A stretch of DNA of 52,053 nucleotides from a virus. Below, piece after piece: positions 718 through 51,169 of the stretch. The translations under genes and the position numbers were made by a program. Location: IMG/VR virus record IMGVR_UViG_3300033552_000012, positions 1-52,053 of that record, one strand, 5' to 3'. The stretch's first letter is position 1; each line of letters opens with the position of its first letter. Under the pieces are notes generated by a model. That model was given only the letters and a program-made list of their open reading frames with translations. It did no database searches and was not told where the DNA came from.

Positions 718-751
718 AATAAAGTAATACTTTTATAGGTTATAGCCAATA

Positions 752-758
752 GTTATAT
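752..758 (+). repeat. Left boundary of the cassette array (attI-like or degenerate site)
   Basis: GTTATATTC begins here and is followed by CA and GCTT. The flank of the first cassette's own R'' at 1019-1025, read in reverse complement, gives GTTATATTC, TCG, GCTT. The pairing and the internal CA/TCG mismatch match those of four other cassettes, so 752/753 is very likely the outer recombination point. No R'' arm is visible on its left. It could be an attI-like or secondary target, or the remains of an attC. The neighbouring sequence (CAATAGT at 748-754 and ACTATTG at 790-796) can form a separate hairpin. Confidence 0.6.
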
Positions 759-800
759 TCCAGCTTCGAGCAACTTTCTGGCGAAAGGTACTATTGCTTT

Positions 801-986
801 TTATTTACGCTTCTTTTTCTTTGAAATAAGGTGTGTCATTTTGTTTCTAATTTTCTTGTATTCAATATTTATTTCTGCTTTATACATCATAATATCATTT
901 GCATTACTTATACCCATAGGAACTATTACGGTAGAATAACTTGAAATAGTAATTCCTCTTTCTTTTCTTTCGTCGATTGGTTGCAT
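801..986 (-). CDS. Hypothetical protein, cassette 1
   Basis: 61 residues, not recognised. The N-terminal half is mixed (ERGITISSYSTVIVPMG), the second half is helical and strongly basic, ending in SKKKKRK, so nucleic-acid binding is possible. It is the only gene of cassette 1 (753-1149). Its leader shares 28 bases with the leader of the 4355-4603 gene (1003-1030 equals 4624-4651). Confidence 0.55.
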   Translation of the reverse strand: MQPIDERKERGITISSYSTVIVPMGISNANDIMMYKAEINIEYKKIRNKMTHLISKKKKRK

Positions 987-1018
987 AATATTTTATTTTA
1001 TCAGTCAAAAAGCCGAGA

Positions 1019-1155
1019 ATATAACATATGATACAATAGATTTTCGGCATTTTTGATTATTGATTTATCTGTCTGTACTTGTTATTATTTGTAATGGCCA
1101 GAAAGTATAGTTCTTGGCCATTCCGAAAAACCTCCCGTATCATAAGCCGTTACAA
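1019..1155 (+). repeat. attC-like site of cassette 1
   Basis: R'' is ATATAAC at 1019-1025 and R' is GTTACAA at 1149-1155. The inner arms pair through ATGATAC (left) with GTATCAT (right) and TTTTCGG with CCGAAAA. The loop contains a second hairpin, AATGGCCA with TGGCCATT. The next gene's stop codon follows 7 bases after R'. Confidence 0.75.
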
Positions 1156-1161
1156 GCAAGT

Positions 1162-1530
1162 TTAAACGAAAGTGCATTCAATCTCTTTTAGAATTAAAGT
1201 TGCATAATATTTACTATTCTCAATAGCATTTTTACCAGTAAGATTAAATTTTTTATAACTCTCAACCACTTCTTTTATAGTCTCGGTTGTTATCGTTGAA
1301 AATAAATTGGTGTCAAGTGCTTTTTCTTGCTCTTCTATAGCATCAATAATCTTTTGGCATTCCTCATAATTTTCATCAAATTCAAAATATTCTAAAACGT
1401 ATAGAACAGATAATATTCCATACATAAACATATACTTCCTATAAATTTTAGTGGAAGTCAAAAAACCTGCTTGTAACAGTGGTTTTGATAAAGCGGGTAT
1501 TGTTTTTGTGTTTAAATTATTTTTACTCAT
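1162..1530 (-). CDS. Hypothetical protein, cassette 2
   Basis: 122 residues, not recognised; mostly helical, with an acidic middle part (FDENYEECQKIIDAIEEQE). The first ~20 residues (TIPALSKPLLQAG) are encoded by the left arm of this cassette's attC-like site. The ATG lies in the attC loop. A start at Met33 or Met35 is possible, but the 5' part is open and in the same frame as the equivalent segments of cassettes 6, 8 and 11. Confidence 0.6.
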   Translation of the reverse strand: MSKNNLNTKTIPALSKPLLQAGFLTSTKIYRKYMFMYGILSVLYVLEYFEFDENYEECQKIIDAIEEQEKALDTNLFSTITTETIKEVVESYKKFNLTGKNAIENSKYYATLILKEIECTFV

Positions 1531-1601
1531 TTTATTATTTAGTTTACTTGTTATTATTTGTCTTAAATTTCCCGCCTTCTCAAAGCCACGAAACGTTAGC
1601 A
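1471..1601 (+). repeat. attC-like site of cassette 2
   Basis: R'' TTGTAAC at 1471-1477, R' GTTAGCA at 1595-1601. The arms GTGGTTTTGATAAAGCGGG and the reverse complement of CCCGCCTTCTCAAAGCCAC pair at 16 of 19 positions. The R' side has extra unpaired bases (CGAAAC) before GTTA, an asymmetry shared with the other long sites. Confidence 0.85.
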
Positions 1602-1607
1602 GGAATA

Positions 1608-1856
1608 CTATAATTCGTGCATTGAAGAAATATCGTTTCGAAAATCTTTTTCGCTTAGTATTTTATTTCTACATATAAAATCAAACAAATCTTTTACGTT
1701 TTTTAAATATTCCGTGTCTTTTCCCCGATGTTTAAATAATAACCAGTTCATTGTTGGGTGTTTTTCTAGCCTAAAATTTAAAATTTTAAAAGACCTTGGT
1801 TTTGCAATAAATCCTAATTGCAACATTATTTCTGTTGTTATTTTAGTGTTTTCCAT
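1608..1856 (-). CDS. Hypothetical protein, cassette 3
   Basis: 82 residues, not recognised. Begins MENTKITTEIMLQLGF, contains a basic aromatic patch (RPRSF-like KPRSFKILNFRLEK) and ends in an acidic helix. The stop codon lies 7 bases after R' of the preceding attC-like site and the ATG is 32 bases below its own R'', so the whole gene is outside attC arms. Confidence 0.6.
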   Translation of the reverse strand: MENTKITTEIMLQLGFIAKPRSFKILNFRLEKHPTMNWLLFKHRGKDTEYLKNVKDLFDFICRNKILSEKDFRNDISSMHEL

Positions 1857-1887
1857 AATAATATTTTGTTGTTAAAATCCGTACTCC

Positions 1888-2021
1888 TGCTAACACACGT
1901 CTGTAGCTATTGTGGAATTAGTGATTAATTTTTAATTGGTTTTGTTTCAGTATTATTTTAGCAACTCCGAAATATTACGCATTTTTGCCCCACAACAGCA
2001 ACAGGCGTGGGAACGTTAGCG
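1888..2021 (+). repeat. attC-like site of cassette 3
   Basis: R'' TGCTAAC at 1888-1894, R' GTTAGCG at 2015-2021. Inner arms: CACGTCTGTAGCTATTGTGG on the left pairs with CCACAACAGCAACAGGCGTG on the right with few mismatches. The flank of R'' (TCCTGCTAAC) is the exact reverse complement of the start of its own cassette at 1595-1604. Confidence 0.85.
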
Positions 2022-2255
2022 GTCATTGCAATTCGTTACATCTCCACATTTACTACAATAAGTACCTGTTCCGTTTTTATTACACATAGGCATATTCGCA
2101 TAAAGCAACGAACCGCTAACACATGATTGTAGTAATTGCATTTCTTGTGCTTGTTTAAATCCTTCCTTAAAGCCGTCTCTTTGCCCGCCAAAACTATTCG
2201 GGTTAGTACCATATCTTTTTTCCGATAACTCCTTTATTTCTTCAACTGTTTTCAT
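2016..2255 (-). CDS. Hypothetical protein with Cys cluster, cassette 4
   Basis: 79 residues. The N-terminal part (EEIKELSEKRYG..., then QRDGFKEGFKQAQEM) resembles a short motif common in Bacteroidetes phage proteins. The C-terminal part has four cysteines in MCNKNGTGTYCSKCGDVTNC and may bind zinc. The stop TAA is formed by R' at 2016-2018. The first ~45 codons lie in the loop and left arm of its own attC-like site, so the gene and attC overlap heavily. Confidence 0.6.
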   Translation of the reverse strand: MKTVEEIKELSEKRYGTNPNSFGGQRDGFKEGFKQAQEMQLLQSCVSGSLLYANMPMCNKNGTGTYCSKCGDVTNCNDR

Positions 2256-2316
2256 TCTTGTTTTTATTTGTGATTAATTTAATTATGCAACTACGACAAT
2301 CATGCGTCCGTTAGGG
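2114..2316 (+). repeat. attC-like site of cassette 4 (long loop)
   Basis: R'' CGCTAAC at 2114-2120, R' GTTAGGG at 2310-2316. Arms: CATGATTGTAGTAATTGCAT on the left against the reverse complement of ATGCAACTACGACAATCATG on the right, 18 of 20 positions paired. The 203-bp length comes from a long loop that codes for the N-terminus of the cassette protein. Confidence 0.85.
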
Positions 2317-2335
2317 TGCATAGCTACATTTTTCG

Positions 2336-2575
2336 CTACGAAAACTCTTTACCGCAAATATTACACCTCAATAAGTTACTCCCAATATAACTACTTTTTT
2401 CTCTTGGATGCGTACATTCTAATATCCCCAGTTCGTAAGCTTCTGATAAAGTTAATTCTCTACCATAGGTCATTCCTTTAAATTTATATTCTAAACTTAT
2501 TGATTCTCCAATAATAAAAACTTTTGCGGTAATATTAGTTTTTCCATCTACATGCTTTATAATAATTGTTTTCAT
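2336..2575 (-). CDS. Small putative zinc-binding protein, cassette 5
   Basis: 79 residues. A beta-rich N-terminal half (KTIIIKHVDGKTNITAKVFI) is followed by CTHPREK and, at the C-terminus, LRCNICGKEF. Cys, His, Cys, Cys could form one zinc site. Its stop codon is 20 bases after R' of the preceding site. It is the last of three genes in the longest cassette (2311-3077). Confidence 0.6.
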   Translation of the reverse strand: MKTIIIKHVDGKTNITAKVFIIGESISLEYKFKGMTYGRELTLSEAYELGILECTHPREKSSYIGSNLLRCNICGKEFS

Positions 2576-2580
2576 ATATT

Positions 2581-2760
2581 TTATTTGTAAATTGTAAATT
2601 CTATTGGATGTAATTTATATGTTTTATTGTAAAACCCTTTTTTTATTTCCCATTTATCCCATTTTTTAGTATTCCAAAAAAGTATAACTATTGAGATTTT
2701 TTTTATTTTTATCTCCACAAGAGGGAAATCCATGTATCTTTCTATAACTTCTATTTTCAT
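2581..2760 (-). CDS. Hypothetical protein, cassette 5
   Basis: A 59-residue ORF with ATG at 2760-2758 and TAA at 2583-2581. It is basic and aromatic (VIERYMDFPLVEIKIKK, then FWNTKKWDKWEIKKGFY). Its ATG overlaps the upstream ORF's end closely (TAGTTATG), and the next gene starts 6 bases after its stop, so the three ORFs of this cassette look translationally linked. Not recognised. Confidence 0.55.
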   Translation of the reverse strand: MKIEVIERYMDFPLVEIKIKKISIVILFWNTKKWDKWEIKKGFYNKTYKLHPIEFTIYK

Positions 2761-2762
2761 AA

Positions 2763-2918
2763 CTATATTTTTTTATTATTGTCTAAATATATTTTCATAG
2801 CTGTTGTTGTAACTTTATTAATTGCGGAATGATTATTCATTGTTAACCTCATAAATTCCTCCCAATCATAATATCCGTGCTTTTCAGCCGATAAATTCTT
2901 TGTTTTATTTATTGTCAT
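2763..2918 (-). CDS. Hypothetical protein, cassette 5
   Basis: A 51-residue ORF, ATG at 2918-2916, TAG at 2765-2763, with a typical A-rich leader. Helical, containing HGYYDWEEFMRLTMNNHS. It is the first gene of a three-gene cassette, and its start lies 33 bases below R'' at 2951. Not recognised; supported by tight spacing to the next ORF. Confidence 0.5.
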   Translation of the reverse strand: MTINKTKNLSAEKHGYYDWEEFMRLTMNNHSAINKVTTTAMKIYLDNNKKI

Positions 2919-2950
2919 AATTATATTTATTTTTAATTACCCACTACGCA

Positions 2951-3083
2951 CCCTAACACAGGTTTTGCCCCATTGCTTTTATTTGTACTTTTTTGGATTT
3001 ACGGTGTCGTATTTAAAGTTTAGTAATTTCTGATTTAACGGTGATTATCACCGCAACGATGGCAAAGCCTGATAACGTTATGC
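2951..3083 (+). repeat. attC-like site of cassette 5
   Basis: R'' CCCTAAC at 2951-2957, R' GTTATGC at 3077-3083. Inner arms pair through CAGGTTTTGCC with GGCAAAGCCTG and TTGC with GCAA. A perfect small hairpin CGGTGAT/ATCACCG sits in the loop. GTTAGGGTGC at the cassette start pairs with GCACCCTAAC at this R''. Confidence 0.8.
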
Positions 3084-3099
3084 GTTATTTAACAGAACG

Positions 3100-3525
3100 T
3101 TATCGATTAACAATTCTATTTAATTGCCGTTTGCACCATTCTTCAACTTCTTGAACATTTTTAGCGGGTGAAACTCTGCTTTTATCGTTTACTTCTTTTC
3201 GATACTCGTATTGTTCTTCGTAATTTTTAGAATAAATACTTTCTAGTAATTTTTCTACTTCTGGATATTTCTTGTTGTCAAACTCTTTCCAGAACTCTTT
3301 TAAAGTCCAATACGAAACTTTCAAAGCATCTTGATTGGTTTGGCAGTAGAAGCCCTTTTTATGATTAATACAAGAAGTCGGAGAGCAACATCCAGTTTCA
3401 CCACAACTTGAACAATAAGGACAGTAAACATCGTATTTTCTATTTCTAAAAATATGTTTGAATTTAGAAAAACAACGCATAACAGCGGTTTTGAGCAAGC
3501 GGGCTTTAGTCTTTAATTCACTCAT
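3100..3525 (-). CDS. Cysteine-rich putative zinc protein, cassette 6
   Basis: 141 residues. Residues ~35-65 hold a dense cysteine cluster (YCPYCSSCGETGCCS, then TSCINHKKGFYC), followed by a helical charged domain and a basic C-terminus. The start ATG is in the attC loop and residues ~5-16 (ARLLKTAVM) are encoded by the attC left arm. GTTATGC of R'' complement also offers an ATG at residue 16. Zinc binding is likely; role unknown. Confidence 0.6.
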   Translation of the reverse strand: MSELKTKARLLKTAVMRCFSKFKHIFRNRKYDVYCPYCSSCGETGCCSPTSCINHKKGFYCQTNQDALKVSYWTLKEFWKEFDNKKYPEVEKLLESIYSKNYEEQYEYRKEVNDKSRVSPAKNVQEVEEWCKRQLNRIVNR

Positions 3526-3606
3526 TTGGTGTGTTTTTATTATTAGTGATTAATTCAATTATTCGGTTTTATTTTTCCGCCTGCACAAAGCCACGAAACG
3601 TTATAG
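3477..3606 (+). repeat. attC-like site of cassette 6
   Basis: R'' GCATAAC at 3477-3483, R' GTTATAG at 3600-3606. Left arm GCGGTTTTGAGCAAGCGGG pairs imperfectly with the reverse complement of CCGCCTGCACAAAGCCACG. The flank ACAACGCATAAC mirrors the cassette start GTTATGCGTT at 3077. Confidence 0.85.
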
Positions 3607-3616
3607 CTTATGGCTA

Positions 3617-3850
3617 TTATTGGTTAATTAAGAAGTTTTCAATATCACCCAACAATGTGTCAATTTCTCCTTTTCTTTTTAGAATTTCATCGTATTCTTT
3701 TTTAGCAAGTTCATAATCTTCACTTTCTGGTTGGTCGGCATCTTCTTGCCATTGCATTGCCTCGTCATCAACTTCATCTGAATACTCTTGTCTTTTATCT
3801 TCTAAAAACTGTTTAAATTCGTTTAATGCTTCGTCTTTTGTTGTCATCAC
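3617..3850 (-). CDS. Acidic helical hypothetical protein, cassette 7
   Basis: 77 residues, very rich in Asp, Glu and Lys, probably one long helix or coiled coil (EFKQFLEDKRQEYSDEVDDE, later YELAKKEYDEILKRKGEIDT). Stop 11 bases after R' of the preceding site; start 27 bases below its own R''. Not recognised. Strong acidity is compatible with a DNA-mimic or adaptor role, but this is only a guess. Confidence 0.6.
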   Translation of the reverse strand: MMTTKDEALNEFKQFLEDKRQEYSDEVDDEAMQWQEDADQPESEDYELAKKEYDEILKRKGEIDTLLGDIENFLINQ

Positions 3851-3876
3851 GTTTTGTTTTAGTTACCCACCACAAG

Positions 3877-4011
3877 CTATAACAGCAATTTGTGGTAATT
3901 TGGGTATTAGTTATTAATTTTTTTTTTGGTCTTGTATTTGTAAAATCTGTCTTGAATCGGTACTTTAGGATTTATTTATCCCAAACTACCACAAGTTGCA
4001 GGGCGTTATGC
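3877..4011 (+). repeat. attC-like site of cassette 7
   Basis: R'' CTATAAC at 3877-3883, R' GTTATGC at 4005-4011. Left arm GCAATTTGTGGTAATTTGGG against right arm CCCAAACTACCACAAGTTGC pairs at 18 of 20 positions. Extra GGGC precedes R', as in Vibrio-type attC sites. The cassette start GTTATAGCTT at 3600 mirrors AAGCTATAAC here. Confidence 0.88.
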
Positions 4012-4275
4012 AACAGTTTCAGAACGTTCTCGTTTAAAAATTTCTAAAAGTTCTGAATCTGTCTTATTTGAATATTTACCGCTTGAATCAAAACGAGTGC
4101 TTAAAAACCAATTTGCAAAATCAATAGTCTGTTTATCTACTAATTCTTCTATTTTACAAATACATTCTTCGTGATTGTAAATTCTTTTTTCTAATAAACT
4201 CTTTAATTCATTTGATAAAACCGATTGCATAACAGCCGTTTTGCTCAATGTCGGTATTGTTTTATCTTTGTCCAT
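4006..4275 (-). CDS. Hypothetical protein, cassette 8
   Basis: 89 residues, helical and charged (LKSLLEKRIYNHEECICKIEELVDKQTIDFANW). The N-terminal ~15 residues (KTIPTLSKTAVMQ) come from the attC left arm; an alternative ATG lies in the R'' complement at Met16. TAA stop is supplied by R' (4006-4008). Not recognised. Confidence 0.6.
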   Translation of the reverse strand: MDKDKTIPTLSKTAVMQSVLSNELKSLLEKRIYNHEECICKIEELVDKQTIDFANWFLSTRFDSSGKYSNKTDSELLEIFKRERSETVA

Positions 4276-4360
4276 ATTGTTTTTAATTTAATTATTAGTC
4301 TATTTTTGTTATTATCCGTGTTGAATTTTCCGCCACTAAGCAAAGCAGCGAACGTTAGGG
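4227..4360 (+). repeat. attC-like site of cassette 8
   Basis: R'' GCATAAC at 4227-4233, R' GTTAGGG at 4354-4360. Left arm GCCGTTTTGCTCAATGTCGG pairs with the region CCGCCACTAAGCAAAGCAGC on the right. The flank GATTGCATAAC mirrors the cassette start GTTATGCAA at 4005 with the CA/TCG-type interruption. Confidence 0.8.
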
Positions 4361-4603
4361 AACATCTTCCTCAACTTTGTCGCCAAAAGTTTCGTTAAAA
4401 TAATCTTCTCTTTTATCGGATACCATTTTATCCCAGCTCATGGTCATAAATCCGTCGTTCCAAGTTTCTTTTAGTTGTTGTTTTTCTTTTTCTAAAAGTT
4501 TCTCCGCTTCAATTTGACAAAATCTTAAAAGTGTATTTGAAATATCACTTTCTTTTCGTTTGTCTTTAATAATTTCTATTAATTCTTGCAATGCTGTTTT
4601 CAT
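4355..4603 (-). CDS. Bacteroidetes-phage-type hypothetical protein, cassette 9
   Basis: 82 residues. The pattern ALQELIEIIKDK, then AEKLLEKEKQQLKETWNDGF and a closing YFNETFG is one seen repeatedly in small proteins of Bacteroidetes phages and prophages, of unknown function. Helical throughout. The stop TAA overlaps R' at 4355. That a phage-type gene sits in a cassette suggests cassettes were drawn from a phage gene pool. Confidence 0.65.
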   Translation of the reverse strand: MKTALQELIEIIKDKRKESDISNTLLRFCQIEAEKLLEKEKQQLKETWNDGFMTMSWDKMVSDKREDYFNETFGDKVEEDVP

Positions 4604-4639
4604 AATTTTATTTTTAATTTATTAGTCAAAAAGCCGAGA

Positions 4640-4700
4640 ATATAACATATGCTTGTAAAAATGGCTTTATCGCCACTATTACAAGCGTCCACCGTTATAC
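4640..4700 (+). repeat. Short attC-like site of cassette 9
   Basis: Only 61 bp. R'' ATATAAC at 4640-4646, R' GTTATAC at 4694-4700. Inner arms GCTTGTAA and TTACAAGC are perfect, followed by GGC/GCC. Its R'' flank is identical to that of the cassette 1 site over 28 bases, and does not mirror its own cassette start, so this site looks exchanged. Confidence 0.8.
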
Positions 4701-4919
4701 GTCAGCTTCTTTGGAATCGTCAGAAACATAATCTACATAAGGATATGTTTTATTTATAAAAGTTACAGTATAACTACAAGTTATACTGTTGCATTTATGT
4801 GGATATTGGGGTGGATGAGTTGTAAAACATTGTCCAGTTGGTCTTAAATAACCATCTTCACATTCAGGGCATTTAAAGTCTATTTTTACTGTTTTTACTT
4901 GTTTAATTTCTTGTGGCAT
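4695..4919 (-). CDS. Small zinc-ribbon-like protein, cassette 10
   Basis: 74 residues. CPECEDGYL at ~17-25, then HKCNSITCSY at ~42-51, gives two CxxC-like or CxxxxC pairs as in zinc ribbons. The stop TAA is in R' (4695-4697). The ATG is 45 bases below its own R'', fully outside attC. Function unknown. Confidence 0.6.
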   Translation of the reverse strand: MPQEIKQVKTVKIDFKCPECEDGYLRPTGQCFTTHPPQYPHKCNSITCSYTVTFINKTYPYVDYVSDDSKEADV

Positions 4920-4963
4920 AATTTTTTATTTTTTGATTAATATTTATTTTAACAAAGCCGAAC

Positions 4964-5040
4964 GCATAACAGCAGTTTTGACTTACCGCCAAAATCTCGC
5001 TGGTACAGAGGTGGCATTTCAAGGCTGCGAAACGTTAGTG
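4964..5040 (+). repeat. attC-like site of cassette 10
   Basis: 77 bp, the size of a typical short attC. R'' GCATAAC at 4964-4970, R' GTTAGTG at 5034-5040. Left arm GCAGTTTTGACTTACCGCC pairs imperfectly with right arm GGTGGCATTTCAAGGCTGC, with an unpaired R'-side spacer GAAAC. Confidence 0.85.
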
Positions 5041-5049
5041 ATAATACAC

Positions 5050-5298
5050 CTATCGCAATTGCATTTTGTTGTAAAACTCAAATTTATTATCCGTAAGACA
5101 TTCGTATTTTATGAGTTTCCATCCGTCTTTATTTGCAATTAATAACATTTCATTATCAATGTACTTCATATCTTTTTCATCCCAACTATTTGAGAATTTA
5201 CCATCATTAATATTTAGCCAGCAATAGCGAAAAGTACTATCACTAACAGCAGTCTTGAGAGATTGTGGTATCGGTGTGTTTTTGTCTATATTTTCCAT
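5050..5298 (-). CDS. Hypothetical protein, cassette 11
   Basis: 82 residues, mixed composition (CWLNINDGKFSNSWDEKDM, then NKDGWKLIKYECLTDN), possibly a small beta-rich fold. The first ~20 residues (TPIPQSLKTAVSD) are encoded by its attC left arm. Stop TAG lies 9 bases after R' of the preceding site. Not recognised. Confidence 0.6.
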   Translation of the reverse strand: MENIDKNTPIPQSLKTAVSDSTFRYCWLNINDGKFSNSWDEKDMKYIDNEMLLIANKDGWKLIKYECLTDNKFEFYNKMQLR

Positions 5299-5375
5299 AA
5301 TTTAATTATTAATGTTTATTTGTTGTTATTTGTCTTGAATAATCCACAACCTTGCAAGGTTGCGAAACGTTATAA
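5241..5375 (+). repeat. attC-like site of cassette 11
   Basis: R'' CACTAAC at 5241-5247, R' GTTATAA at 5369-5375. Left arm GCAGTCTTGAGAGATTGTGG pairs with right arm CCACAACCTTGCAAGGTTGC at most positions. The flank TACTATCACTAAC mirrors the cassette start at 5034 over 13 of 14 positions. Confidence 0.85.
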
Positions 5376-5384
5376 GTAATACTA

Positions 5385-5534
5385 TTATCTCTTTTCCATA
5401 ATTCCATATATCTCATTGTAAGCGTAATTTTCGCTAAAATCATTCAATGCATCTACAATGTCTTCCGCATCTACTGTTATGGTGTAATAACCATATTCTG
5501 TGTGTTCATAAAACACGATAAATTCTTTTTCCAT
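5385..5534 (-). CDS. Small hypothetical protein, cassette 12
   Basis: A 49-residue ORF from ATG 5534-5532 to TAA 5387-5385. Sequence begins MEKEFIVFYEHTEYGYYTIT and continues with an acidic helix (VDAEDIVDALNDFSEN). The leader has the usual A/T-rich form. It fills the last cassette (5370-5589). Not recognised, but codon pattern and position support it. Confidence 0.6.
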   Translation of the reverse strand: MEKEFIVFYEHTEYGYYTITVDAEDIVDALNDFSENYAYNEIYGIMEKR

Positions 5535-5554
5535 AATTACTTTTATTTTAAATT

Positions 5555-5595
5555 ACCCATTTCGAAAAACCACGCATAGTTGCGAGACGTTACTC
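5555..5595 (+). repeat. Right end of the array: attC right arm, left arm degenerate
   Basis: The right arm TTCGAAAAACCACGC then GTTGCGAGAC and R' GTTACTC (5589-5595) has the form of the other sites. A clear left partner is not found; the best candidate is AATAACCATATTCTGTGTG at about 5487. The R' supplies the stop of the 5590-6063 gene. Either a decayed attC or a single-sided junction with phage DNA. Confidence 0.45.
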
Positions 5596-6063
5596 TTTTT
5601 TGTATTTTTCAAATGCCAAAATAGCCTTTTCTTTTGCGTAATAACTAACGTTTCCGGAAAGTCTTTTCTTCTCTAATTTTTCCTTATCAGCGATATAAAA
5701 AGCCTTGAATGTATTGAAACCAAACATCGTCATTAATTCCTGGTTGCTGATATACATACTCATATCAACAGACTCTTTTTTACAGCTTAACAGCTCTTTT
5801 ATGTGTTCTAGGTTTTTAAGCGAATAATATGTGCTACTTCGGTTAAACTTTGGGGTATCGCCTAAAGTAGCAAACAGCCTTTTTAGTTTTACCGCCCCTA
5901 TATTATATTCTTCTCGCAAATAAACCGCACTGACATGATTTTCTACTTCGCTGTCTTTTATCCAACTGCCTTTTACTCTACATTGCCCTCGTTTTTCACT
6001 GTAAGGAACTGCTGTGGTGAACATCGTTATCGGGTTCAAGTTTTTCTTCCAAAATTCTACCAT
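5590..6063 (-). CDS. Hypothetical protein next to the cassette array
   Basis: 157 residues, not recognised. The C-terminal half (MYISNQELMTMFGFNTFKAF, then EKKRLSGNVSYYAKEKAILAF) looks like a winged or MerR-like helix-turn-helix. The middle (YLREEYNIGAVKLKRLFATL) is another helical segment. Its stop is made by the R' at 5589, and it lies 4 bases from the exonuclease gene. It borders the array, so a role in cassette exchange cannot be excluded, but no catalytic motif is visible. Confidence 0.6.
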   Translation of the reverse strand: MVEFWKKNLNPITMFTTAVPYSEKRGQCRVKGSWIKDSEVENHVSAVYLREEYNIGAVKLKRLFATLGDTPKFNRSSTYYSLKNLEHIKELLSCKKESVDMSMYISNQELMTMFGFNTFKAFYIADKEKLEKKRLSGNVSYYAKEKAILAFEKYKKE

Positions 6064-6067
6064 AATT

Positions 6068-6838
6068 TTATTTGTTGATTAGTTCAATTGCGGCTAAAAC
6101 TCTTTCGGTCAGAAAATCCTTGTCTGCCTGTGGGACTTCAAAACGGATGATATTTACACTATCTATTCCGCTTTCTTTATAAACATAAGGAAGTTCGCCT
6201 TCTTTGGCATATTCTACTTTCCAATATGGATTGTCAAGAGTAGTGTTATATGCTTTTATTTCAGCTAATTCTTCTAGGTAAGGCATAAAAATGATCAACT
6301 CGGCATATTTAGAGTTTAAAATAATAGAGTTGGAAACTAATTGCCAATAATATTTTTCGCCTTCTTTGGATTGTTTTCTAATTTGCTGAATTACTTCATC
6401 CCCGTTAAAACTTTCTTTTTTAGTAACAGTTAAACCATCAAAATCATAAATAAATTTAATCAAATTATAAAAGGCTTTCCTGGTTAAAGGACATTTTATA
6501 TCAGTGATTGTATCACAACAATCATTTATAATTACCTGACCGTCAGGAGTACCGCACCATTCTTGAATTTCAGGATGTGGATAGGTTATTTCAGACTGCA
6601 TAATGTAAGAAAGAGGTAATTTATCGTGTACAATAATCTCACACAGTTTACCCCAGCTAAAAGCCTTTACATCACTTTCCAATTCCAATTTATGCTTAAA
6701 AAAACGCTCCATTATACATTCGTCTACATAAGTGTAAAAAGGCGCACCAAAACTATCCTTTGTCCTTCCGTTGGAAACTAAAGAAACGATTTCAGATGAG
6801 GTGATATTTCCGATTCTAATATTTGATAATTCACTCAT
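6068..6838 (-). CDS. YqaJ/Cas4-like PD-(D/E)xK exonuclease
   Basis: 256 residues. Residues 62-70 (WGKLCEIIV) carry the early Glu, GTPDG at 96-100 holds the Asp, and DIKCP at 113-117 gives the D-x-K pair of the PD-(D/E)xK nuclease core. Such phage enzymes resect double-stranded DNA for recombination. The gene overlaps the annealing-protein gene upstream by 8 bases, the usual exonuclease/annealase pairing. Likely works on phage DNA in the cytoplasm during replication and recombination. Confidence 0.8.
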   Translation of the reverse strand: MSELSNIRIGNITSSEIVSLVSNGRTKDSFGAPFYTYVDECIMERFFKHKLELESDVKAFSWGKLCEIIVHDKLPLSYIMQSEITYPHPEIQEWCGTPDGQVIINDCCDTITDIKCPLTRKAFYNLIKFIYDFDGLTVTKKESFNGDEVIQQIRKQSKEGEKYYWQLVSNSIILNSKYAELIIFMPYLEELAEIKAYNTTLDNPYWKVEYAKEGELPYVYKESGIDSVNIIRFEVPQADKDFLTERVLAAIELINK

Positions 6839-7493
6839 GGTTCACATTTTTTAATAATTTAATTGCTTTTTCGTAACTTAATTTTTCTTTAGTGTCTATA
6901 ATTCTTTCGTAGTGCAATTGCTCCTCAGGACTGATGAATTCTTTTTTGATTTCGTAAATTTGTTTGAGTTCCGGCAAAGTATTTTCCAGTGCCACTTTCA
7001 CTTCTTTAAAATCTTCTTTATTATAAATATCATTAGCAATACCGATTTCGGCAGCACATTTTTTTAATGCGTCAGTAGATGCAGCTTTTAAATCATTTCC
7101 TATGGATAAAGGAATCTTATCAATTCCTTTTTGTATTTCATCTTGATTCTGCTTGCGATACATAATATCCTTGTTACCAAATTGCATTTTTATAATTGTT
7201 TTTCCTGCACTACGACACGTTAAACGCCCTTTTACAATTGCTTCACCGTGCAATATTTTTTCGTCTATAATTTCAAAATCCCAATCCCAACCAAACATTA
7301 AGTTCAGGCATTTTTTAACATAACCTCCCGTAACATATTCCCAAGTACCTCCGCCCTTCGCTGGACGTTGTTTTACGTACTGTTTTGGCGTTCTTTTCAG
7401 TATTAAAGCTAATTGGTTCGCATTTAAATTATTGTCCTCTACAAGGCTTAAATCACTAGCTTCAATTAAAGCTAATTCGTTATTGTTTTCCAT
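6831..7493 (-). CDS. Rad52-type single-strand annealing protein
   Basis: 220 residues. Residues ~36-60 (VKQRPAKGGGTWEYVTGGYV, then LNLMFGWDWDFEI), followed by a strand with RSAGKTIIKMQFG and SIGNDLKAASTDALKKCA, follow the Rad52/Sak-like pattern of phage recombinases. It should coat and anneal single strands made by the neighbouring exonuclease. The C-terminus is helical and charged. Strong context with the overlapping 6068-6838 gene. Confidence 0.8.
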   Translation of the reverse strand: MENNNELALIEASDLSLVEDNNLNANQLALILKRTPKQYVKQRPAKGGGTWEYVTGGYVKKCLNLMFGWDWDFEIIDEKILHGEAIVKGRLTCRSAGKTIIKMQFGNKDIMYRKQNQDEIQKGIDKIPLSIGNDLKAASTDALKKCAAEIGIANDIYNKEDFKEVKVALENTLPELKQIYEIKKEFISPEEQLHYERIIDTKEKLSYEKAIKLLKNVNHE

Positions 7494-44212: not shown

Positions 44213-45409
44213 ATGAGTAAATGGAGAATCTATGACGATGTCATTAAAACTATATTGCTGAATAATGAGGAATTATCAGACTGGAAGGTTTCTCAGATTG
44301 TCCTTAAAGCAGAAAGACCAACAACAGAATCAGACTTACTTCGGACTTATATCAAAAGGAATCGAAAAAGGCTATTAGATAAATTTGAAGGCAATTACAC
44401 CGCTACAGACGCGCTCGACATCGACAATACCACGGTAAAACACATGTGGGTAAAGAATAAAGAAGCTTCTTTATTTGTCAAAAACCCAAATTTTATTCCT
44501 CAGACAGAATCTGAAACCGACAACTTCAAGACTTTAAGCGATGCTTTAATTTATGACTTGAAGAACTACTCCCCCATTTTTAAAAAAATAGAATATGTAG
44601 AAAGTACTGATTCCTATTTATTAGTAGTTGACCCCGCAGATGTTCATGTAGGTAAATTATGTAGTGATTTTGAAGTTGGACAATCTTACAATAATCAAAT
44701 AGCGGTACAAAGAGCATTAGAAGGGGTTCGTGGATTATTGCAAAAAGCAAAAGGGTTTCATATAGACCAAATACTCTTTATAGGAGGAAACGATATTTTA
44801 CATATTGACAGCCCTGCCAGAAAAACAGCAAATGGAACACCACAAGACACGGACGGTATGTGGCACTCTAATTTTCTGATAGCCAAACAACTTTATGTTG
44901 ATATTTTAGAAATCCTTCTTGCCGTGGCTCCGGTTCATTTTGATTTTAATCCAAGCAATCACGACTATACCAACGGTTTCTTTTTATCTCAGGTTATAGA
45001 GGCTTATTTTAGACATTGCAAAGAACTTACTTTCAATACTTCAATCGCTCACCGAAAATACTACAAATACCATAAAAATCTTATCGGAACTACCCACGGA
45101 GACGGTGCAAAAATGACTGACTTACCGATGCTTATGGCTACTGATAAACCTGTTGAATGGGCTGAAACAACACACCGATATGTTTATGTACATCATTTAC
45201 ACCACAAATGGAGTAAAGATATTTTTAGTGTTTGTGTAGAGGGATTAAGAAGTCCAAGCGGTACGGATTCCTGGCATCACCAAAAAGGATTTGAACACGC
45301 ACCGAAAGCGGTTGAAGGATTTTTGCACAGTAAAAATAACGGACAAATCGCCCGTTTAACCCATATTTTTAGCTTATTATTCATTGTTTTTTCGTATATT
45401 ACAGTATGA
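44213..45409 (+). CDS. Calcineurin-like metallophosphoesterase
   Basis: 398 residues. PADVHVGKL (D-x-H), GGNDILH (GND), NPSNHDY (NHD), THGDGAK and YVHHLHHK are the ordered metal-ligand motifs of this superfamily. An N-terminal helical region (about 1-130) may bind DNA. The last residues (FSLLFIVFSYITV) are unlike a normal end of the family and abut the GIY-YIG gene, so the 3' end may have been changed by its insertion. Substrate unknown; phage DNA processing or defence evasion is possible. Confidence 0.75.
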   Translation: MSKWRIYDDVIKTILLNNEELSDWKVSQIVLKAERPTTESDLLRTYIKRNRKRLLDKFEGNYTATDALDIDNTTVKHMWVKNKEASLFVKNPNFIPQTESETDNFKTLSDALIYDLKNYSPIFKKIEYVESTDSYLLVVDPADVHVGKLCSDFEVGQSYNNQIAVQRALEGVRGLLQKAKGFHIDQILFIGGNDILHIDSPARKTANGTPQDTDGMWHSNFLIAKQLYVDILEILLAVAPVHFDFNPSNHDYTNGFFLSQVIEAYFRHCKELTFNTSIAHRKYYKYHKNLIGTTHGDGAKMTDLPMLMATDKPVEWAETTHRYVYVHHLHHKWSKDIFSVCVEGLRSPSGTDSWHHQKGFEHAPKAVEGFLHSKNNGQIARLTHIFSLLFIVFSYITV

Positions 45410-46044
45410 TAGGAATATATAAAATTACAAATCCAAACGGAAGAGTTTACATAGGGCAAAGTATCAATATAGAAAGACGTTTTGATTCTTATTCAAGATG
45501 TGATTGCAAAGGACAAACCAAAATATACAACTCGATAAAGAAACATGGGTTTTTAAAGCATAAGGTAGAAGTTCTTGTTTATTGTGATATATCTGAATTA
45601 AATGAAAAAGAGGCTTATTATATAGAATTATATAATTCAAATAGCAGTTCTGATTTAAATTGCGGAGTTCCTAGATATTTAAATAAATCAGGATATTTAT
45701 CAGAAGAGACAAAAGCTAAAATGACATTAGCACAAACAGGCAATAAAAAATGGCTAGGTAAAAAACATAAAGAATCTACTAAGATTAAAATGTCAATAGC
45801 TCAGATGGGAAAAAAAGTAAGTAAAGAAACTTGTCTTAAAATATCTGAATCTAAAAAAGGTATTAATCCAAAGCATTTTGTAGAAATTCATCCAAACGCT
45901 AAAATAGTTTTAAATTTATCAAATGGAGTTTTTTATAAAAGTTTAAAAGAAGCTTCTTTAGATTATAATATTAATTACAATACATTAAAAAGTTATCTAA
46001 GTGGTAACATAAAAAAAAATAAAAGTGATTTAATTTACGCGTAA
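45406..46044 (+). CDS. GIY-YIG homing endonuclease
   Basis: 212 residues. GIYKITNPNGRVYIGQS (3-19) gives the GIY and YIG motifs, with Arg24/Arg25 and a Glu in EKEAYYIELY. The C-terminal half has NUMOD3-type repeats (LSEETKAKMTLAQTGNKKWL; KHKESTKIKMSIAQMGKK) and a NUMOD1-like end. Free-standing selfish gene, overlapping the phosphoesterase stop (ATGA). Base composition is more AT-rich than its neighbours. Confidence 0.88.
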   Translation: MIGIYKITNPNGRVYIGQSINIERRFDSYSRCDCKGQTKIYNSIKKHGFLKHKVEVLVYCDISELNEKEAYYIELYNSNSSSDLNCGVPRYLNKSGYLSEETKAKMTLAQTGNKKWLGKKHKESTKIKMSIAQMGKKVSKETCLKISESKKGINPKHFVEIHPNAKIVLNLSNGVFYKSLKEASLDYNINYNTLKSYLSGNIKKNKSDLIYA

Positions 46045-50530: not shown

Positions 50531-51169
50531 TTATTTAATTTTTGATTGTTTTATTTCTATTCCTTTTAATTTAGAATCATGTCTTATTATTTTATAACAT
50601 TTATTAATAAAATCTTTAATATCTAAAGATCCTTTCATTTGGTTGCATGTTTTGCATGACGAAGTAATATTTACGGGAGTGTTTAAACCCCCTTTTGATA
50701 TTGGTATTAGGTGCTCTAAATGCCATATTTTACTACTGATAGGTTCCGAACAATAGTAACATCTAAAAGAACTTCTTTTTAAACAATTCAAAACATCATC
50801 AGATGTTATTGTTTCGATATAATTAACTCTTCTATTATTTGAGTTTGCTTTTTCGCTGCATTTATATTTAAACATATTAATAACGTCTAATTCTTCATCT
50901 TTAGAAACGTACCTTATTTTTATATTTTTAATAGGAATTCTATCATTTTCAATTTTAAATGATGTTTTATAAATAGGCGTTTTTAAGTCAACAAAGTATT
51001 CAATCATTAATAAAACTAAATTTAATTTTAAATCTTCTATTTTAACTCTAGGAACTCCGCTAATTATTTTTAATGGAATAATTTCTTCTTTAAGTCCAGA
51101 AGTTCTAAAACAATACCCTTCTGATGAAATGAAATAACGTGATGTGTTTTTTAGCTGTTTAACCATCAA
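50531..51169 (-). CDS. HNH endonuclease
   Basis: 212 residues. CYYCSEPISSKIWHLEHLIP and ISKGGLNTPVNITSSCKTCN give the Cys pairs and HxxP-N-H core of HNH nucleases. N-terminal domain (YFISSEGYCFRTSGLKEEII) may recognise DNA. Either a homing nuclease or part of phage DNA processing; set apart by AT-rich gaps on both sides. Confidence 0.8.
   Translation of the reverse strand: MMVKQLKNTSRYFISSEGYCFRTSGLKEEIIPLKIISGVPRVKIEDLKLNLVLLMIEYFVDLKTPIYKTSFKIENDRIPIKNIKIRYVSKDEELDVINMFKYKCSEKANSNNRRVNYIETITSDDVLNCLKRSSFRCYYCSEPISSKIWHLEHLIPISKGGLNTPVNITSSCKTCNQMKGSLDIKDFINKCYKIIRHDSKLKGIEIKQSKIK

Follow-up and report, generated by a model that had tools for sequence, protein, structure and literature searches.

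Organization of the array in the phage window

The window, by which we mean the whole stretch of 52,053 nt analysed here, is an IMG/VR virus record (IMGVR_UViG_3300033552_000012) with DNA similarity to Flavobacterium and Polaribacter phages. Positions 753-5589 contain 12 tandem units, in which 11 attC-like sites are complete and one is a half site. The initial annotation had proposed an integron-like array of twelve units over this interval, and both the extent and the number of units held up, the first and last G|TTA being read from the sequence at 752/753 and 5589/5590. All units share one plan: from G|TTA, through mostly one small minus-strand gene, to nnnnTAAC, then a hairpin site that closes with the CG|TTA of the following unit. 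The features are as follows.

752..753, plus strand: left array boundary G|TTATATTC; no attC arm on the left side, attI-like end (from the sequence and Baltic phage equivalents)
753..1149, minus strand: cassette 1; gene 801-986(-), site 1022-1152 (from the sequence and the site scan)
1150..1595, minus strand: cassette 2; gene 1162-1530(-), site 1474-1598, start codon in site
1596..2015, minus strand: cassette 3; gene 1608-1856(-), site 1891-2018
2016..2310, minus strand: cassette 4; gene 2016-2255(-), site 2117-2313, start codon in site
2311..3077, minus strand: cassette 5; ORFs 2336-2575, 2581-2760 and 2763-2918 (-), site 2954-3080
3078..3600, minus strand: cassette 6; gene 3100-3525(-), site 3480-3603, start codon in site
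3601..4005, minus strand: cassette 7; gene 3617-3850(-), site 3880-4008, 18/20 arm pairs
4006..4354, minus strand: cassette 8; gene 4006-4275(-), site 4230-4357, start codon in site
4355..4694, minus strand: cassette 9; gene 4355-4603(-), short site 4643-4697; hybrid, judged from its ends
4695..5034, minus strand: cassette 10; gene 4695-4919(-), short site 4967-5037
5035..5369, minus strand: cassette 11; gene 5050-5298(-), site 5244-5372, start codon in site
5370..5589, minus strand: cassette 12; ORF 5385-5534(-), R' half site only, end at G5589
5590..6063, minus strand: first gene beyond the right end of the array, with the TTA of the last GTTA as its stop codon TAA

Sites were located by scanning for TAAC...GTTA pairs and scoring the complementarity of their arms, with a threshold score of at least 18. 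Ten sites reached this score within 740-5700, none did in the remaining part of the 52 kb record, and 10 dinucleotide-preserving shuffles of the array region gave a mean of 0. Site 2117-2313 was gained when longer sites were permitted, hence the total of 11 complete sites; unit 12 ends with an R' half site only. Measured from TAAC to GTTA, the window sites span 55-197 bp. The inner arms of about 20 bp with up to 18 of 20 pairs described in the initial annotation were recovered (site 3880-4008). The two short sites that it gave as 61 and 77 bp also exist, but are 55 and 71 bp from TAAC to GTTA, longer core boxes having been counted. All cassette genes of the window lie on the minus strand, that is, against the polarity of the sites. 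A start codon falls within a site in five cases, and the TTA of GTTA supplies the stop codon (TAA on the gene strand) of four cassette genes and of the right flanking gene.

An Rfam scan of the window gave 0 matches, and searches of the cassette proteins against Pfam and PHROGs found no confident function; the two PHROG matches, at about 2.5e-5, both lack one.

A family of covarying hairpin sites

Sites of this family also occur in further flavobacterial phages and on Flavobacterium chromosomes, where they follow an integrase gene. In seven of the nine window cassettes tested, the two ends are complementary over the full 5 nt beyond GTTA/TAAC; for the two ends of one array site the count is 0/9. 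The corresponding counts are 73/91 against 5 in other phages and 56/66 against 4 in bacteria. Complementarity of a cassette's own ends, and not of the ends of an array site, is the pattern expected if the units were once circles that carried their own site. Cassette 9 departs from it: its two ends are non-complementary and the right one is a copy of the right end of cassette 1, from which we take this cassette to be a hybrid.

Covariation was analysed in the 58 phage and 93 bacterial sites with common spacing. Most of the variable stem positions pair at 0.8-1.0, compared with 0.3-0.6 expected, and the arms covary as a stem of ~20 bp with two fixed mismatches, positions 6 and 15 being mispaired in nearly all sites (T.G and A.C, top strand). 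Spacers of 1 and 5 nt occur in 58/94 phage sites and 93/105 bacterial sites, and the median site length is 126 in both. As the single canonical yardstick we used the class 1 attC of aadA1, whose sequence was confirmed by exact plasmid matches; it has spacers of 5/6 nt and its bulges on the other arm. A Vibrio repeat, tried as a second canonical yardstick, gave no match in the phage collection. In the present sites the bulge is mostly on the L' side, so that the class 1 placement, on the L'' arm, is not met. Asymmetric spacers had been noted first in the window; they measure 1/5, and what makes the sites asymmetric is a pair of fixed mismatches together with a bulge, which lies on the other arm.

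Single-strand folding, which the initial annotation had suggested as a check, gave a divided answer: z was below -2 for five of nine window sites, whereas sites 3480, 4230, 4967 and 5244 folded no better than shuffles. For this reason the structural claim rests on covariation.

Such repeats, set between small early genes, could instead be regulatory hairpins or terminate transcription, their cassette-like flanks being coincidental. They do sit between genes or at 5' ends, and in the phages their loops form A-rich leaders on the gene strand, in which a search for a promoter motif revealed no clear one. However, several sites contain start codons, complementarity joins cassette ends and not ends within one site, and entire units are gained, lost and moved among isolates (see later). 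This reading, already disfavoured, retains hardly any plausibility.

Movement of whole cassettes among isolated Baltic phages

The 15 isolated Baltic phages have array flanks in common but differ in whole cassettes, which have been inserted, deleted or moved, and the crossovers fall within CGTTA. The 36 nt at the left boundary are the same in 15/15 isolates; after them come seven different first cassettes, every one beginning at G|TT, and the cassette maps show left ends that vary and right-end cassettes that are largely constant. This variable left end resembles, at the level of sequence, insertion at an attI end. Differences between isolates were scored as the gain or loss of single cassettes, and the direction of change was not resolved.

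Several pairs illustrate these changes. Over long stretches, phages filifjonk9-1 and mumin9-1 show about 99.9% identity; the former additionally carries a 412-bp unit, located at G|TTATAAG, and a three-unit block of 1.58 kb with the crossover within ACGTTA. A 439-bp unit, with 6 nt (CGTTAT) common at the junction, distinguishes sniff9-1 from hemulen6-1; this cassette is also absent from sniff9-2, and lillamy9-1 has it as the eighth cassette but lillamy9-3 as the first, with genomes of equal length. Finally, snork6-1 and snork6-2 differ in their first cassette. Judged by genome comparison, with no assay, the integron criterion of whole-cassette mobility with crossover at G|TT is fulfilled. Gain, loss and movement of whole cassettes in isolated phages are the shuffling in relatives for which the initial annotation had called, and they support its proposal of a way for phages to exchange genes.

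Cassettes are also found in more distant company. The body of cassette 2 is 92% identical to a cassette of IMG/VR 3300043409_002136, which answers the expectation that the same cassettes recur in other phages; the neighbours differ, and although the body is common to both phages the site loop is not. Conversely, site 4230-4357 of cassette 8 is 85% identical to a site of Flavobacterium phage 6H that stands on a different gene. Both cases suggest exchange near R'', and exchange at the R'' end is not explained by simple R' recombination.

These two exchanges, near R''-L'', resemble exchange in a conserved arm, as would be left by homologous or annealing recombination between similar repeats without any site-specific recombinase. 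A Rad52/22-family protein (PF04098) that could serve such a process is encoded just right of the array (window 6831-7493), and phages of this kind are mosaic. Against this explanation, the insertion junctions have only about 4-8 nt in common around GTTA, the left boundary is entirely without an arm, and the insertions are whole cassettes, one of which was relocated at equal genome length. We therefore consider it improbable as the account of the array as a whole.

Phage cassettes are inverted relative to their bacterial counterparts

Polarity was taken from the site itself, and intervals longer than 2.5 kb or without a dominant ORF were left out of the tally. Phage genes oppose the site polarity in 59/60 units, whereas bacterial genes follow it in 37/38 (Fisher p 1e-24). 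For one site (L034, 6093-6223) the spacer score gave the wrong polarity; by eye, it is like the others. Junction evidence agrees on the polarity: the variable end of the phage arrays is at the left, which corresponds in bacteria to the side of the recombinase and the candidate attI. The uniform inversion of the phage cassettes against site polarity allows them to constitute a pool distinct from that of the host. No protein was shared between the phage and bacterial pools at E<=1e-5, in a small sample of 109 and 60 units.

A candidate host recombinase in Flavobacterium

In Flavobacterium and relatives, a gene for a tyrosine recombinase immediately precedes the bacterial arrays and has the same direction. 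At 20 such loci we observed 32 matching sites downstream and 1 upstream, compared with 1 site in 20 control XerC/D loci. These 20 recombinase loci also contain 10 candidate attI, 102-123 nt past the stop codon, and further ones were found besides. The candidate attI reads ..TATATACnA|GTTA-like and is complementary to the first R''. Homologues of the recombinase (E<=1e-60) are present in 77/150 Flavobacterium genomes (species). Matches to the site motif occur in 32/77 recombinase-positive and 13/73 negative genomes, and three or more matches in 16 positive and 2 negative ones; co-occurrence of recombinase and sites across the genus is only partial.

Profile, pairwise and spacing evidence indicates that this recombinase lacks about 43 residues of the IntI-specific region. 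Positions ~180-238 of the TIGR02249 profile are unmatched, the alignment to 2a3v leaps from 178 to 243 while the recombinase advances from 272 to 294, and the conserved K-to-H spacing is only 64-69 residues in 16 recombinase proteins. The I2 helix thus appears to be missing. The best family match is XerA (NF040815), for which the F. sedimenticola protein scores 228.5 bits (cut-off 220). An AlphaFold model of one recombinase, made without an alignment, had a mean pLDDT of 44 and was set aside. As a counterpoint, published IntI work ties single-strand recombination to the I2 helix, which the host enzyme appears to be without.

No tyrosine recombinase (PF00589) was detected in the window phage, P12002L or the muminviruses mumin9-1 and filifjonk9-1, and the window gave no match to TIGR02249 (IntI) either, in agreement with the initial view of an integron-like array in a phage without its own integrase. 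Because the window phage and several array phages lack such an enzyme, recombination of their sites is best explained by the host enzyme working in trans. A phage or prophage recombinase, or ordinary host XerC/D, might act in place of the array-associated host enzyme: five IMG/VR array phages (one barely above the cut-off) and 6H do encode a tyrosine recombinase, and XerC/D-like proteins occur in the bacterial genomes examined. We regard this too as unlikely, given the four phages without a tyrosine recombinase and the near absence of sites at XerC/D loci. That the array-associated host enzyme performs the recombination is itself inferred; there is no assay, and the recombinase has not been shown in any phage host. 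The genome of LMO6, which with LMO9 is among the hosts of these phages, was sought among 400 Flavobacterium genomes through prophage laban6-1, but the best match, at 67% identity, is not the host.

Comparison with known systems

The initial annotation knew of no described case. However, clusters of attC were already known from virulent phages, Polaribacter phage P12002L among them, through the work of Qi et al. 2023, in which IntI1 recombined five of the six phage attC sites tested, at G|TTRRRY (PMC9892861). Their clusters have at least 2 attC, two of the phages show the typical gene direction, and Flavobacterium is unmentioned in the main text (PMC9892861). Our scan found sites of the present type in P12002L. 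Like these phage-borne CALINs (attC clusters lacking an integrase), the present arrays are attC-like clusters in virulent phages without an integrase; they differ in having 10-15 cassettes with uniformly inverted genes, in the cassette movement seen among isolates and in the identification of a matching host recombinase.

With sedentary chromosomal integrons, such as those of Vibrio and Treponema, the system shares an integrase, attI, tandem attC cassettes, insertion at the attI end and crossover at G|TT, and the Treponema integrase is also codirectional with its cassettes (PMC3607928). By contrast, the Flavobacterium recombinase lacks the IntI-specific region, the asymmetry of the sites is built otherwise, and in the phage arrays the genes are inverted and an integrase is absent. 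XerA-type recombinases (NF040815; PDB 5hxy) are the best-matching family and align contiguously, but the Flavobacterium enzyme carries about 74 additional aa at its N terminus and is placed before a cassette array.

Three of the tested criteria for an integron array are fulfilled, namely tandem ORFs with R''/R' cores, a hairpin of variable sequence and conserved structure and, by comparison of isolates, whole-cassette mobility with crossover at G|TT; class 1 spacer and bulge placement, gene orientation with the site (in phages) and an own integrase are not. The attC identity first assigned to the sites stands as regards hairpins, G|TT and cassette mobility, while spacers of 1/5, the bulge arm and the gene direction are atypical. 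The host recombinase, as far as its sequence can tell, fails the criterion of the IntI additional domain and satisfies that of adjacency to attI and array. This domain was regarded as defining in Archaea and in earlier surveys (PMC9668308, PMC2426708), and IntegronFinder 2.0 gives Salinibacter as the complete Bacteroidetes integron (PMC9024848). Our search of open-access papers, which did not extend to subscription papers and preprints, turned up neither inverted phage cassettes nor integrons of Flavobacterium. As far as that literature shows, the inverted cassettes, the record of natural shuffling and the link to an unusual integrase are new.

Proposed mechanism and biological meaning

Overall, the earlier interpretation is supported. 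We propose, with a probability of roughly 80%, that the region is a mobile cassette array working in an integron-like manner, with a recombinase most likely provided in trans by the Flavobacterium host. A site in single-stranded DNA would fold into the ~20-bp stem, and the tyrosine recombinase would join two sites at G|TT, so that whole cassettes are excised, inserted or moved, with changes preferentially at the left end. The phage would supply sites and cassettes, the host most likely the enzyme, and the inverted phage cassettes could make up a pool separate from those of the host. The single-stranded substrate, movement during infection and a benefit of shuffling to the phage are inferences.

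We also lean, if only slightly, towards a broader hypothesis: that Flavobacteriia possess a distinct integron class, with a XerA-like recombinase without the I2 region and single-stranded hairpins polarised by fixed mismatches, which lytic phages, with inverted cassettes as a pool of their own, exploit in trans to exchange, for example, methyltransferases during infection. The host recombinase bears on an open question in integron evolution, that of the I2 helix as a requirement for recombining single-stranded attC hairpins, which a published model of IntI evolution asserts (PMC7790495). A system with the other integron features but without this helix would make the requirement directly testable.

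Several DNA methyltransferases are found among the cassettes, whose cargo includes genes thought to protect phages from host restriction. Nilsson et al. 2020, with no mention of cassettes, traced a difference in plating between two hosts to one methyltransferase, plating on LMO6 being reduced when this specific enzyme is missing (PMC7077304); its gene may be among the mapped cassettes. It appears that phages trade genes by means of a bacterial system for swapping them. If true, this would be a site-specific route by which phages swap accessory genes singly, present in isolates that can be grown in the laboratory.

Cassette variation and neighbouring genes

Over a 40-bp stretch at their ends, cassettes 9 (window 4612-4651) and 1 (991-1030) share 95% identity, and because of this shared stretch we regard cassette 9 as a hybrid. 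Annealing recombination could possibly be supplied by the Rad52/22-family protein encoded beside the array, one of three genes located in the window as follows:

6831-7493, Rad52/22-family protein gene (PF04098), immediately right of the array
45406-46044, GIY-YIG/NUMOD3 homing-type endonuclease gene
50531-51169, HNH homing-type endonuclease gene

Several cassettes of the Baltic phages (L105-L117, L012 and L013) carry a DNA methyltransferase annotation; poor plating on one host has been reported for phages lacking a specific methyltransferase (Nilsson et al. 2020, PMC7077304).

Related arrays in bacteria

Integrase-attI-cassette arrays are present in the chromosomes of Flavobacterium and relatives (L085, L081, L076, L079, L089 and L118-L137), with >20 sites in some of these genomes. 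An array of the same type, in canonical orientation, was also seen on a contig labelled Candidatus Staskawiczbacteria (L052), a label that may reflect misbinning. The integrase of the chromosomal arrays of Flavobacterium and its relatives lacks the IntI-specific region, and these arrays have possibly been overlooked by tools that require it.
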